Counted from the first letter of the stretch, positions 18,655 through 23,235 are shown. The stretch: 64,000 bases of DNA from Nitrososphaerota archaeon (GCA_023379805.1 JAMCPI010000014.1:62001-126000); one strand, 5' to 3'. Made by a program: numbers and translations. Notes: generated by a model not told the origin, from the letters alone.

Positions 18655-18785
18655 GAGAGGGAAGGTGGAGAGAAAGATGGCGGCGACTTTATTTTGTTGA
18701 TCGCTTAACGATACATGTGAGAACTTGAAGATATAGATAATGTGGAACACTACTCATGCGTGACTGTTTTACGATTTCCGTATTT

Positions 18786-18808
18786 GGTTCTGGTAAGTTA
18801 ATGTCCAT
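18786..18808 (+). repeat. Left terminal inverted repeat of the transposon
   Basis: 23 bases beginning GGTTCTGG and ending TGTCCAT, the exact reverse complement of 22390-22412. It is preceded by the target duplication CCGTATTT at 18778-18785. Confidence 0.92.
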
Positions 18809-18889
18809 GAATTGTGCCTAATGAGATATCGCCGATATAATGACGATATACTTATATACATACGATATAACTAAGATATACGTGGAAAG

Positions 18890-19780
18890 ATGCAGACGTG
18901 CAAATATTGCCAAAGCACAAACGTCGTAAAGCATGCCAAAAGAGGTAATGTCCAAAGATACCTCTGCAAAGCATGCAATCATCACTTCCTAGATAACAAC
19001 GTCAACTTCCCCAGAATGCGAGTTAACGACCACGTAATCGTTACCGCTTTGAACCTATACTATGGTGGTCTTTCAACCTACAAAGTTGCTGAGCAACTAT
19101 CAGACATATTCGGAGAAAACGTTTCTCACGTTACCGTTTTGAATTGGGTACAGAAATACAGCGTAATGGTAGCGGAGTACGTTAAGACGCTAAAGCCTGA
19201 AACCTCTGGGAAGATCCACCACGACGAAACCGTTGTAAAGATTGACAAAGATAACAAATGGTTCTGGGAAGCAATCGATGAAGAGACCAGATTTCTAGTA
19301 GCTTCGCACCTATCAAATAGTAGAACCCTAGTCGAAACAACCCAGCAATTCAAGAAAATCAAAGAAGGATGCAATCCACAGCCCAGCGTAATATTCGTAG
19401 ACGGTTCAAACACATACGATCAGGCTTTTGAGTTTGCTTTTGGTAATCCTAACAAAGTTGGTCGACCCGAGCTAGTAAAACGTGTAGGTATCCGAGCAAG
19501 AGAGACCAACAACATGGTCGAGCGTGTCCACGGGACACTCAAAGATAGGTTACGACCAGCTAGAGGCCTAAAGCACAACGATACAGCAAAGACATGGCTA
19601 GACGGCTATGTAATCAACTACAACTACTGCCGAACCCACAAAGCAATCGGTCAAACACCAGCTCAAGCGGCAGGAATTAAGGTGAAAGGCTGGAAACAAC
19701 TAATCCAGAACGCTCAAGCTAGTCAATGTGAAGAGGAAAGTAAAAGTCAACAGATAATCGAGGTAAAGGTGAGCAACTAA
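18890..19780 (+). CDS. DDE transposase, IS6/IS240-like with N-terminal zinc ribbon
   Basis: A 296-residue transposase. The N-terminal zinc ribbon has C4, C7, C26 and C29, followed by a helix-turn-helix region (YYGGLSTYKVAEQLSDIFG). The catalytic core shows D112 (IHHDETVVKI), D171 (IFVDGSNTYDQAF) and E211 (NNMVERVHGTLKDR), and ends with YNYCRTHKAIGQTPAQAAG, typical of rve/IS6-like enzymes. Three copies of CGATATA (18833, 18844 and 18863) lie between the left end and the gene and may be its operator. The downstream gene starts 3 bases after the stop. The family assignment (IS6 versus a related archaeal group) is by motif only. Confidence 0.88.
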   Translation: MQTCKYCQSTNVVKHAKRGNVQRYLCKACNHHFLDNNVNFPRMRVNDHVIVTALNLYYGGLSTYKVAEQLSDIFGENVSHVTVLNWVQKYSVMVAEYVKTLKPETSGKIHHDETVVKIDKDNKWFWEAIDEETRFLVASHLSNSRTLVETTQQFKKIKEGCNPQPSVIFVDGSNTYDQAFEFAFGNPNKVGRPELVKRVGIRARETNNMVERVHGTLKDRLRPARGLKHNDTAKTWLDGYVINYNYCRTHKAIGQTPAQAAGIKVKGWKQLIQNAQASQCEEESKSQQIIEVKVSN

Positions 19781-19783
19781 AAA

Positions 19784-20098
19784 ATGAGAAGAGCCTTAGT
19801 TTCACTACCCGATGGAGTATGGGAAGTAGTCGATAAAGAGCTGAAAGGCAAAATCGGCGAAGGAGATTCAGAGGTTATACGAAATGTAATGATCGCCTAC
19901 CTTACCGAGAAAGGCTACTTGTTACCGTCTAAGAACAAACCTAGCCAGATCAACCAGATTGCAGATGAGATTGAAATGGTTGATACAATGATTAACTCAT
20001 TAGCTGAAGTCTTAGAAGAACGGGGACAGCTCAACTTCTCGGATTGGGAAAACAGGATAAGAAAGAAGATAGCGGAGAGAACTTCAAAAACTCAATAA
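19784..20098 (+). CDS. Ribbon-helix-helix (CopG-like) protein in the transposon
   Basis: A 104-residue protein. Residues 1-45 (RRALVSLPDGVWEVVDKEL then SEVIRNVMIAYLTEKGYL) fit a ribbon-helix-helix DNA-binding domain; the rest is charged and helical. It starts 3 bases after the transposase stop, so it is co-expressed with it and could regulate transposition or assist the transposase. It ends overlapping the convergent zinc-ribbon gene by 7 bases. Confidence 0.65.
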   Translation: MRRALVSLPDGVWEVVDKELKGKIGEGDSEVIRNVMIAYLTEKGYLLPSKNKPSQINQIADEIEMVDTMINSLAEVLEERGQLNFSDWENRIRKKIAERTSKTQ

Positions 20099-20418
20099 CC
20101 ATACTTCTCTAAAATAGCTCTTAACGTATTCGTTATTCGTTCTACACTACCAGAGCGAGCCATAGCGTATTGGTTGATTAGTTCCCTGATATCGTGAGTC
20201 ATATCTTCCATTGCCATTTTGTACTCCTCTTCTGTTTCAGGCTTATTCAGCTCGCCCATTACTTCATCGGTGTTTTTTATTCTGCCAATATAGCATCGGT
20301 CATGCTTGCCATGAGTAAAAGCAAGATATTGGAATCTTGGGTTCTTTATAGACGGTTTGTAAGAGATTGTTTGAGTTCCTTCTCTGCCACATTTAGGACA
20401 AACGGATACTATTGGCAT
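20092..20418 (-). CDS. Zinc-ribbon protein in the transposon
   Basis: A 108-residue protein. The N-terminus has a CPKCGREG zinc-ribbon half, with a second possible metal site around HGKHDRCYIGR (residues 36-46). The C-terminal half is acidic and helical. The gene is convergent to the ribbon-helix-helix gene. Its ATG is inside a 28-base perfect palindrome (20417-20444), which is probably an operator. The function is unknown; homologues appear to be common in archaeal mobile DNA, but this is an impression, not a search result. Confidence 0.62.
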   Translation of the reverse strand: MPIVSVCPKCGREGTQTISYKPSIKNPRFQYLAFTHGKHDRCYIGRIKNTDEVMGELNKPETEEEYKMAMEDMTHDIRELINQYAMARSGSVERITNTLRAILEKYGY

Positions 20419-20444
20419 GGTTTCGATCTATAGATCGAAACCAT
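20417..20444. promoter_or_regulatory. 28-base perfect palindrome over a start codon
   Basis: Each arm reads ATGGTTTCGATCTA followed by its exact complement. It covers the ATG of the minus-strand zinc-ribbon gene. A second inverted repeat, CTATCAT-AGT-ATGATAG (20464-20480), lies 20 bases away, towards the plus-strand gene at 20518. Both are likely protein-binding sites in this divergent promoter region. Confidence 0.7.
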
Positions 20445-20517
20445 ATTAAAGATTTCGTCGATACTATCATAGTATGATAGATAGTGATATATAGCTAAGC
20501 TAGTGTAAAGGTAGCGC

Positions 20518-20685
20518 ATGGTCAGGAGAATTTTTCTAGTTTTAGACGATATGAAGTATACTAAGTTACTAAGATTGAAGGGCGAGAAGACTTGGGAGAA
20601 GCTTCTAGTCGACGACTTGCTAGAGCGTGAAGAAGTCAAGATGACGCCCATAATTAGAGAGAGGGGAAGGGCGAACGAGGCTTGA
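20518..20685 (+). CDS. Short basic protein before the GHKL ATPase
   Basis: A 55-residue protein from the ATG at 20518. The N-terminus (VRRIFLVLDDMKYTKLLRL, then TWEKLLVDDLLE) could be a ribbon-helix-helix-like beta strand plus helices. It ends at a TGA at 20683. The GHKL frame is open across this stop in the +1 frame, so the two may be separate coupled genes or one protein joined by frameshifting. The function is unknown. Confidence 0.5.
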   Translation: MVRRIFLVLDDMKYTKLLRLKGEKTWEKLLVDDLLEREEVKMTPIIRERGRANEA

Positions 20686-22033
20686 GCATAAGGCTGGAGT
20701 AGACATCATCTACGAACTTGCTGTACGTCTATACCCTACAAGTCTAGAATCTTTCCGTGAAGCTATCTCCAACTCGCTGGATGAAGGTAGCAAGCGGGTG
20801 GATATTCAAGCTTCGCTAAAAGAGGTTTCGTTCGAAGATTGGGGAGAAGGGATTAAGGATGTAGAGTCGTTTAGAACATACGGCCAATACTCCAAGGCCA
20901 AGCTTGGAGGTGAGATTATCGGCATGAAGGGCTTAGGCAAACTTTCACTTCTACGCTTAGGAAAGAATGTCAATTACAGAACAAACAACGGTGAATATGG
21001 TATTGACATTATCATGACGCCTACTGAACTAGACGCTGAAATGGGCGGGAAGGACAAGTTTTTGCAGCATCGAGGTACCAAAGTCATTATTCCCAATCCC
21101 GAAGAGGTACCACCAATCGACGAGCTATCTGACTATCTGAAAAAAGCGTTTGGTCTACGGATAGCAAGCGGTATCGAGATTATTCTAAATGATGTTAAGC
21201 TTACCTCAAGAGTCGACAAGACCGAGAGATTCCTATTCAGACTCAAAGGGGACATCGATGTAACGGGAAACCTCAAGGGAGAGAGGAAAGGTAGAGGTTC
21301 AGTAGATATCTATGTTCGACATGTGCTTGTACAATCGCTGATTGTAGATCCTGAAAGATGTTTTGGAGGCTGGGTTAACTGCAACGGGTTAATTCCCAGT
21401 ACCGATCGAAACGAGTTGGTTAAAGAAAGAATATACAATGATTTTCTCGCTCATCTTAAGCAGTACGTTATCAGGTTCCCTAAGAGAGAAGAGGATGTTA
21501 GCCTAGAAGAAATGCTGATTGGAAGCGAATTATCACGACTCCTGAAGAGTTACCTCAAATTCATGAACTTATTCCCTGAAGGTAGAATCTCGCTAGGTCG
21601 AGGCAAAGAACAATCTAATAGTGCATTGTCAACTAGAAGCCCAAGGCAGAAAGGAGTCAAGCGGAAAGAACCAGAAGAGGAGCTACCTGATTACGTCAAG
21701 GTTCATACGTCGATCAAGACGGATAAACCTATCAGGCGAACAAGCAAGACCGACTATGGAATTATGTGGCTTGATCAGGATTACGGGAACGAGAAAGAAC
21801 CGCTATTCTTCATTGAACCTAACATGGTTGTACGGAACAGAACGAACGACCTTTACAAATTCGCTTTGAAGAGCAAACAGTCTTTGGGGCCAAAGTGGTT
21901 AAGACTTCTGCCTTACCTCTCAAGGGTAGCTGCAAGCGTGAATCCAGACTCTAAGAAGTGGACACATGAACAGATGAACCTAGAAATTGATCGGGCAACT
22001 CGCTACTTCCTAAAGTACAGGAAGGAGCTTTAG
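20654..22033 (+). CDS. GHKL (HSP90/MORC-like) ATPase carried by the transposon
   Basis: The Bergerat ATP-binding motifs are all present: N box SFREAISNSLDEG (about 20750-20788), G1 DWGEGI (about 20836-20853) and G2 GMKGLGKLSLL (about 20921-20953). The first conventional start, GTG at 20798, lies after the N box, so a protein starting there would lack the Mg/ATP-binding Glu and Asn. The frame is open back to 20654 but holds no ATG, GTG or TTG. The real start may be a rare codon, a frameshift from the 55-residue gene, or there may be a sequence error. The C-terminal half is unrecognised and basic. GHKL proteins of this kind act in DNA handling and in some defence systems; here the role is unknown. 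Confidence 0.7.
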   Translation, partial: LERGEGRTRLEHKAGVDIIYELAVRLYPTSLESFREAISNSLDEGSKRVDIQASLKEVSFEDWGEGIKDVESFRTYGQYSKAKLGGEIIGMKGLGKLSLLRLGKNVNYRTNNGEYGIDIIMTPTELDAEMGGKDKFLQHRGTKVIIPNPEEVPPIDELSDYLKKAFGLRIASGIEIILNDVKLTSRVDKTERFLFRLKGDIDVTGNLKGERKGRGSVDIYVRHVLVQSLIVDPERCFGGWVNCNGLIPSTDRNELVKERIYNDFLAHLKQYVIRFPKREEDVSLEEMLIGSELSRLLKSYLKFMNLFPEGRISLGRGKEQSNSALSTRSPRQKGVKRKEPEEELPDYVKVHTSIKTDKPIRRTSKTDYGIMWLDQDYGNEKEPLFFIEPNMVVRNRTNDLYKFALKSKQSLGPKWLRLLPYLSRVAASVNPDSKKWTHEQMNLEIDRATRYFLKYRKEL

Positions 22034-22052
22034 CAAAACAGAGCTGATTATC

Positions 22053-22346
22053 TTGGTGAAGTGGTTACGAGTCGAGGACTTAAAGAGGGTTCTAGAAGAG
22101 AGAGAAAACAACGGCGAAAAACCGATACTTGTATTTCGATGTACTAGTTGCGAGAAAAAAGGAAAACAGTTCATCTTCCTTTCTCAAAACGATGTTTGGT
22201 ACCACTTGGAGTCAGAGCATGACATGGAAGAATCAGCTATTGATAGAATTGTAAAATCCGCATTTAACGTACCATTCGCTCAAGCTGGATTATCAGAGTC
22301 GACGGATTACTTCATCTACGGAAAAAGACAATCTACCAATCCTTAA
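22053..22346 (+). CDS. Small zinc-finger protein in the transposon
   Basis: A 97-residue protein from a TTG (22053) or the adjacent GTG (22056). It shows FRCTSCEKKGKQFIFLSQ followed by WYHLESEHDME, a C2H2-type arrangement (CX2C...HX5H) suggesting one zinc finger. It starts 19 bases after the GHKL ATPase stop and is the last gene before the right end of the transposon, so it is probably a partner of the ATPase. No more specific family is recognised. Confidence 0.6.
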   Translation: MVKWLRVEDLKRVLEERENNGEKPILVFRCTSCEKKGKQFIFLSQNDVWYHLESEHDMEESAIDRIVKSAFNVPFAQAGLSESTDYFIYGKRQSTNP

Positions 22347-22389
22347 GAAAGCAATATCATAACTATGTCGGGTTTATTTCACTTAGTCT

Positions 22390-22412
22390 ATGGACATTAA
22401 CTTACCAGAACC
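22390..22412 (-). repeat. Right terminal inverted repeat of the transposon
   Basis: Exact reverse complement of 18786-18808; followed by the target duplication CCGTATTT at 22413-22420. Confidence 0.92.
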
Positions 22413-22473
22413 CCGTATTTCCATAGAACGTTTATTAGACATTGCGCGGTTAAGGTGAGTGGAGGTTCATCGC

Positions 22474-22872
22474 ATGGGTTCGCAGGGAAGCCCCGGAACC
22501 GCGTTCATCTTATCCTTGATAGGGGGAATATTGATGCTTGTTAGCGGAGGTTTATCATCCACCTGGTTCATGTCTGGGGCACCCGGTTTCGGTGGAATGA
22601 TGGGTGGTGGATTTGGTGGCATGATGGGAGGCTTCGGGGTTCCCCTCGGTTTTATGGGCGGTCTTTCGCTGCTAGGATTAGTGTCCGGAATAATCGTGAT
22701 TATCGGCGCACTGATGCTCAATACACGCCCCGCAGAACACACCACGTGGGGCACGATTATCTTGATCTTCTCAATAATTAGCCTCCTAGGAATGGGTGGA
22801 TTCTTTGTCGGCGCGATACTTGGAATCGTAGGTGGCGCCTTGGCACTGAGCTGGAGACCATCAGCACCCTAA
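22474..22872 (+). CDS. Gly/Met-rich multi-helix membrane protein
   Basis: About 132 residues from the ATG at 22474, chosen because GGAGG lies 8 bases before it; an in-frame GTG at 22459 is the alternative. There are about four hydrophobic helices (AFILSLIGGILMLVSGG, LGFMGGLSLLGLVSGIIVI, TIILIFSIISLLGM, AILGIVGGALAL) and a glycine/methionine-rich loop with repeated GGMMGG between helices one and two. The arrangement resembles DUF4064-like small membrane proteins. The MMGG motif recurs in the protein at 23826-24221, so the two may act together. Confidence 0.65.
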   Translation: MGSQGSPGTAFILSLIGGILMLVSGGLSSTWFMSGAPGFGGMMGGGFGGMMGGFGVPLGFMGGLSLLGLVSGIIVIIGALMLNTRPAEHTTWGTIILIFSIISLLGMGGFFVGAILGIVGGALALSWRPSAP

Positions 22873-23235
22873 GCGCAAGACGCCATGAGCAGAGATAGCG
22901 GCGCCCCAGATTTTTTCATCGTGCCCCCAAATGCATGCCCAGTTGATCTAATACTGATTGGATTAGAGTAGAAGATGATGTTTCTATTTCATTTAGGATT
23001 GATGTACGCCTGTAGTTTCTTCACTATCAACCACAATTGAAACATCGCCAACCAAATGTTGCATTAATGTATAGTGGACTAGCAGAGATATGAAGTGTTT
23101 ACGGTTCTGAATTTGGTTTCAAAAACTAGGCGTCTAGCTCTTCCTTCTCAGAGGTAATACAGTTAAGCTGGCGACTGATTGATTGATTGAGAAAACATAC
23201 AACAATATGGGAAAAAGTGGAGTGAGGCGAGTTAC
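22873..23235. other. Intergenic, no gene seen
   Basis: About 360 bases with stops in all frames and no RNA gene recognised. It lies between the Gly/Met-rich membrane protein and the convergent small gene ending at 23236. Confidence 0.5.

Follow-up and report, generated by a model that had tools for sequence, protein, structure and literature searches.

Members of the IS6 family of insertion sequences (IS) are known to form pseudo-compound transposons, in which pairs of copies move genes. A review of the family (PMC7986276) describes elements near 800 bp in size that have GG tips with a cTGTt motif and 8-bp target repeats; zinc-finger members form clades h and i, of which clade h comes from Clostridia and has a transposase (Tnp) of 340-350 aa, and a single member, ISDsp3, bears a passenger, one hypothetical gene. 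Thaumarchaeal IS-like transposons are described by Krupovic et al. 2019 (PMC6563490) as common and as typically having one or two genes. Here we describe W, an element of 3,627 bp with six open reading frames (ORFs) at positions 18786-22412 of the window, a 64,000-nucleotide stretch of DNA from a Nitrososphaerota archaeon (GCA_023379805.1, JAMCPI010000014.1:62001-126000). We hold with high confidence that W is a cargo-bearing (tIS-like) transposon of an archaeal IS6-type clade in which a core is combined with swapped cargo.

W is bounded by 23-bp terminal inverted repeats, the left one at 18786-18808 on the plus strand, with a GGTTCTG tip like that of IS6 ends (PMC7986276), and the right one at 22390-22412 on the minus strand; the two are complementary at 23/23 positions. 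Exact copies of CCGTATTT abut both ends externally (18778-18785 and 22413-22420) and form the target site duplication (TSD). Chance is a negligible explanation for this pairing of repeats and duplications, an architecture found again in 22 relatives. The first-pass annotation of this DNA, which had reported an intact transposon with 23-bp ends and an 8-bp TSD, is thus borne out. The recent move that it also proposed is plausible, as the ends are perfect and W is present as one copy in its own 2.34-Mb genome; the one congener compared lacks the locus and shows no empty site, and a 75%-identical phosphate-binding gene in that congener is most likely a paralogue. A scan for solo ends gave full matches only to W and to the element on contig C16 of the same genome, with three further partial matches. 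Additionally, a paralogous segment at about 265 kb of contig C12 (G000:C12, L113/L115) is 82% identical to window positions 22420-22979, contains a paralogue of the gene downstream of W and starts exactly where the right TSD ends. It was rejected as an empty site because the upstream flanks are unrelated.

The transposase (18890-19780, plus strand, 296 aa) is an IS6-family DDE enzyme with an N-terminal zinc ribbon, as determined from profile matches and alignment. It scores 140.4 bits against the IS6 equivalog model NF033587 (cut-off 125) and 67 bits against the Pfam model DDE_Tnp_IS240 (cut-off 27), and nine aligned transposases of the clade show no variation at residues D112, D171 and E211 or at the following K218. 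The zinc ribbon raised the question of membership in IS1 or IS1595, which was rejected, the IS6 model scoring far higher and the IS1 model falling under its cut-off. The tip of the W inverted repeat, GGTTCTGG, and those of relatives, GATACTGTT, GGTTCTGTT and GATTCTGTT, have the G(G) end and the cTGTt motif of IS6. The 8-bp TSD of IS6 is found in W, and the relatives have 8 or 9 bp; the inverted repeats of W are 23 bp long, compared with 15-20 in IS6. W departs from the simple IS6 layout of one gene in 0.7-1.76 kb, having six ORFs in 3,627 bp, and for this reason we regard it as a variant IS6 element that bears cargo, and not as a standard one. A pattern scan of viral contigs for the W transposase gave no match, and a transposase search of plasmids returned only one IS6 match of 27% identity.

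The relatives were gathered from the same genome (contigs C12 and C16), from other Nitrososphaeria, from a scan of genome contigs and from a phylum search. With W they make up 23 delimited elements (W, L059-L065, L067, L070, L072, L074-L076, L078, L081, L083-L086, L092, L128 and L129), whose hosts are Nitrososphaeria, Bathyarchaeota and Methanolobus. They range from 1.87 to 6.05 kb and all contain extra DNA. Their tips match, those of L061 and L067 being degenerate, and an exact TSD of 8 or 9 bp was determined in 17 of the 23, 15 by a uniform script and two by hand: in L059 the script had misplaced the tip, and L062 requires that a one-base difference between the tips be allowed. The TSD is 8 bp in W and its nearest relatives. 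A 9-bp TSD is found in L059, L078, L083, L084, L086, L092, L128 and L129, and is confined to the L059/L078 subclade and to the subclade that holds the Bathyarchaeota and Methanolobus vulcani members, so that TSD length seems to track the subclade.

Two members from one genome, L063 and L064, have transposase-RHH (ribbon-helix-helix) cores that are 97.2% identical over 1,300 bp and matching ends, and the cargo blocks on both sides of the core are unrelated. The W transposase is itself a mosaic. Its residues ~101-200 share 80-85% identity with the C16 element and 32-60% with L074, whereas for residues 41-60 and 221-240 the order is reversed, with 85-95% identity to L074. These patterns indicate that core and cargo recombine. 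Two further large family members in the same genome are L070 (G000:C12 383000-397000; 4,356 bp, TSD ACATTCAG) and L072 (G000:C16 46000-60000; 5,338 bp, no TSD); the cargo of L070 consists of two unknown genes of ~370 aa and, by eye, one of them shows a nuclease-like motif. Members of a neighbouring IS6 clade (L044, L045, L049, L058 and L130) likewise have additional genes within their inverted repeats, and the TSD is exact in the first four and agrees at 7/8 bases in L130. The last of these (G351:C39, 1417-8535) is 7.1 kb long with 24-bp ends, and by eye it contains an Eco57I-like methylase, a ParB-like ORF and toxin-antitoxin-like ORFs. Both the transposon and the pattern of a constant core with variable cargo across the clade are well supported.

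The second gene of the core, RHH1 (19784-20098, plus strand, 104 aa), was assigned from its position, alignment and a low-confidence model, and has a ribbon-helix-helix-like N-terminus and a helical C-terminus. A gene of this type lies directly 3' of the transposase gene (tnp) in 23/23 delimited members, and RHH1 thus belongs to the core of the transposon and not to its cargo. Some subclades have two ORFs in its place, one for the RHH part and one for the C-terminal helices; the neighbouring IS6 clade, with transposases of ~375-460 aa, showed no RHH gene in the four members inspected. The RHH1 sequence pattern fits a beta-alpha-alpha N-terminus, and two helices are present in the monomer model, albeit with a pLDDT of 66. 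Upstream of tnp, at 18825-18880, GATAT(A) iterons, partly in 11-bp steps, flank a TATA-like box and are a candidate RHH1 operator. GATAT-N6-GATAT occurs twice in this stretch and nowhere else in W, a count reached in 0/500 shuffles, and such iterons also lie upstream of tnp in L060, L067, L072, L074, L075 and L081 (counts reached in 0-8/500 shuffles across the seven elements). They were never found downstream of the tnp start. We infer that RHH1 represses its own tnp-rhh operon; a search of the open-access literature for a link between IS6 and RHH proteins found none.

As RHH1 is a core gene, the cargo of W comprises four genes and not five as first annotated: ZnR, RHH2, GHKL and a zinc-finger ORF. 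All of the genes named in that annotation are there (DDE transposase, RHH-like, minus-strand zinc-ribbon, second RHH-like, GHKL and C2H2-like), and the element is, as it claimed, cargo-bearing and not a simple insertion sequence. Not all of its labels have the same backing: RHH2 and the zinc-finger ORF lack significant profile support, and RHH1 is named from its sequence pattern and low-confidence model. ZnR (20092-20418, minus strand, 108 aa) is a zinc-ribbon protein and the divergent partner of GHKL (20675-22033, start approximate, plus strand), an arrangement that is conserved in relatives. A 28-bp perfect palindrome, ATGGTTTCGATCTATAGATCGAAACCAT, overlaps the ZnR start codon (20417-20444) and is a candidate operator; a matching palindrome was not found in L074. 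RHH2 is a short RHH-like ORF (20518-20685, plus strand, 55 aa; VapB-like model, E 0.04, not significant) that is absent from L074, and the C2H2-like zinc-finger ORF (22053-22346, plus strand, 97 aa, TTG start; E 0.05, below cut-off) is replaced there by an unrelated ORF. Neither is thus common to both elements, and the proposed pairing of GHKL with this zinc finger gives way to the pairing with ZnR.

ZnR is found in 4/400 genomes of the order, and in 4/4 it is neighboured by the GHKL gene in that same divergent layout. Two of these pairs are in transposons, W and L074, at a matching position by the core, and two (L136 and L137) are free-standing, so the pair is not always linked to this transposase, which was a check that the first-pass annotation had proposed. 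GHKL relatives were found in 9/300 genomes by whole-genome search, and only 2/23 delimited elements carry the gene. Degenerate-pattern scans of genome contigs and viral contigs for the GHKL protein gave no match, and no GHKL relative was present in phage records. The protein is Hsp90/MORC-like by profile and fold: the N, G1 and G2 boxes are present, and the AlphaFold model (pLDDT 78) as well as the profile match point to Hsp90/TRAP1 and MORC. Judged by eye, the surroundings of the free-standing pairs include a TIR-like ORF (L136) and HEPN/PIN-like ORFs (L137). At L024 (5217-9977), also by eye, a terminase-like gene neighbours a distant GHKL relative that has a zinc-ribbon ORF next to it, which suggests a provirus with a similar pair. 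A further relative at L021 (7420-9312), 59% identical, has no N-box and carries a membrane segment fused at its N-terminus; it looks like a domain capture or a decayed gene.

Recognizable defence genes are carried by four of the 23 delimited elements. The cargo of L072 contains an IetS-like subtilase (9e-39) with a PD-(D/E)XK-like partner, L084 carries GmrSD (HEC-06, 2.6e-179) and a DUF3368/UPF0175 toxin-antitoxin-like pair, and L086 and L129 carry type I M and S genes together with DUF3800 and an AAA/DUF4143 ATPase, respectively. In a rough PADLOC control at 1e-8, the 58 cargo ORFs matched 169 families, with methylases, HEC-06 and Orf5 among the matches listed, and the 83 flanking ORFs matched 33, with mostly SF2-helicase-type names, one member each, among the matches listed; these figures do not count distinct members and are not a measure of enrichment. 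Other cargo includes a C39-like peptidase (L075, by Pfam) and an NYN protein (L128). In both L065 and L075 a cysteine-peptidase-like gene, C39-like by Pfam in L075 only, lies beside a partner of ~320-340 aa without a profile match, possibly a recurring two-gene module. Additionally, a cargo ORF of L081 (7758-8147) has a truncated proteasome-like domain (Pfam E 2e-11).

The anatomy shows that the DDE transposase recognizes the ~23-bp ends, inserts the whole unit and copies 8 bp (9 in some subclades) of the target; DNA of any kind between the ends travels along with the core. RHH1 would most likely be a DNA-binding autorepressor that acts on the tnp-rhh operon through the GATAT iterons, and it may also be an accessory transposition factor. 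Recombination between resident elements, a mechanism suggested by the observed pattern, would reshuffle cargo and core. In W, the conserved pair of ZnR and GHKL is accompanied by two small genes that are optional, with GHKL most likely being an ATP-driven dimerizing clamp of the Hsp90/MORC type that works with the zinc-ribbon protein.

The description of IS6 elements as simple, ~800 bp long and with one passenger-bearing member, together with the diverse and mostly unknown cargo of the family, would agree with W being an ordinary IS6 element that captured neighbouring DNA in a one-off chance event, its cargo being meaningless. We strongly disfavour this view and consider it very improbable, since the clade shows extra DNA in each of its 23 delimited elements (1.9-6.0 kb) and IS6 elements of the neighbouring clade in related genomes carry extra genes too. 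Elements with the same ends that lack the cargo everywhere else, which the first-pass annotation took to imply such a capture, were not found in that simple sense: the relatives carry different cargo, and L074 has the same ZnR-GHKL pair in the same place beside the core. It is also improbable that ZnR-GHKL and the zinc finger form an accessory module for mobility or target choice and not a cargo for host benefit or defence. The pair does lie within the ends of two elements, and GHKL ATPases can handle DNA, but the 21 other delimited members lack it, most still have TSDs with other cargo, and free-standing pairs occur without a transposase; the role in target choice that had been suggested is accordingly not upheld.

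Deserving of more weight, yet still unlikely, is that ZnR-GHKL is a chromatin- or chaperone-like module that became mobile by accident and has no role in defence. The nearest folds are indeed Hsp90/TRAP1 and eukaryotic MORC, and several related genomes have GHKL relatives at ordinary chromosomal sites. What speaks against it is the sporadic spread of both genes and, by eye, the terminase-like and zinc-ribbon neighbours of the distant GHKL relative and the TIR-like and HEPN/PIN-like ORFs near the free-standing pairs. The defence role that had been proposed at the outset is a reasonable reading of the cargo, and for the genes of W itself we infer, tentatively and at close to an even call, that ZnR-GHKL acts against viruses or plasmids. 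A wider reading would combine a widespread, undescribed archaeal class of small defence-carrying transposons, with an IS6-type Tnp and RHH engine and swapped cargo (restriction systems, GmrSD, subtilase-nuclease pairs and ZnR-GHKL), with ZnR-GHKL as a new two-gene defence system; this joint claim we regard as rather doubtful.

Several observations weigh against the explanation of W as a mobile, core-plus-cargo transposon with defence genes. Neither a second copy of W nor an empty site was found, which makes its current mobility putative. The family cargo is mostly of unknown function or consists of membrane proteins, recognizable defence genes being in the minority, and PADLOC, which has no model for the W cargo, assigned none of the six W proteins to a family even with E values up to 1 allowed. 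RHH1 has no match to known RHH family profiles (Pfam, PDB), and its model is poor; the GATAT iterons are missing from L061 and L076, and L065 and L070, which have split RHH genes, have just single GATAT pairs. Finally, the W GHKL gene has no canonical start. No ATG, GTG or TTG lies in frame upstream of the N-box, and the first ordinary start, GTG 20798, is past it. Because an ACG stands where L074 and L136 have TTG, W GHKL may be a decaying gene, a weakly translated one or one joined to RHH2 through a frameshift (+1 at GCT TGA).

If single elements of an IS6-type clade carry swappable cargo of up to about 5 kb, the picture in which IS6 moves genes by pairs of copies would need revision. Reading the DNA between their ends is a ready route to unknown defence genes in ammonia-oxidizing and other archaea, and the role of RHH1 is a testable question that the clade raises.

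Among known systems, Tn7-like transposons with defence cargo (PMC8649781) likewise join a transposition core to variable cargo that includes defence systems, but W is small, uses a single IS6-type Tnp with an RHH protein, and shows no TnsA/B/C relatives. The W GHKL protein has the GHKL plus S5-like ATPase module of MORC/paraMORC and Hsp90 proteins, including the catalytic boxes. The MORC S5 motif GhXhhpXXRhl (PMC2292703) was not found in the W or L074 protein, and we therefore file it as MORC-like and not as MORC. In prokaryotes, MORC-like GHKL genes occur chiefly within restriction operons (PMC2292703), which speaks for the defence reading. W GHKL has no adjoining helicase or nuclease, and its partner is a separate zinc-ribbon protein. 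The thaumarchaeal IS-like transposons come from the same host group as W, and the available part of PMC6563490 reports no cargo-bearing class among them. With IS6 (IS26/IS257) W shares the NF033587-type DDE transposase, the tip motif, the 8-bp TSD and the zinc-finger extension of clades h and i. However, IS6 members are mostly ~0.8 kb (the longest listed being ~1.76 kb) with one tnp gene, whereas the W clade is 1.9-6 kb with cargo and an RHH partner; clade h from Clostridia has a Tnp of 340-350 aa compared with 296 aa in W, and some subclades of the W clade have a 9-bp TSD. The W clade has non-transposition genes between IS ends, as in a tIS, and like ISDsp3 it combines one transposase with passenger DNA within the same ends. 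ISDsp3 is a lone case with one hypothetical gene, and is the one passenger-bearing IS6 member known before in the open-access literature; in the W clade, by contrast, cargo is the rule and spans several genes, the second gene is constant, and, against the background of that literature, the new feature is an RHH partner in a cargo transposon of the IS6 type.

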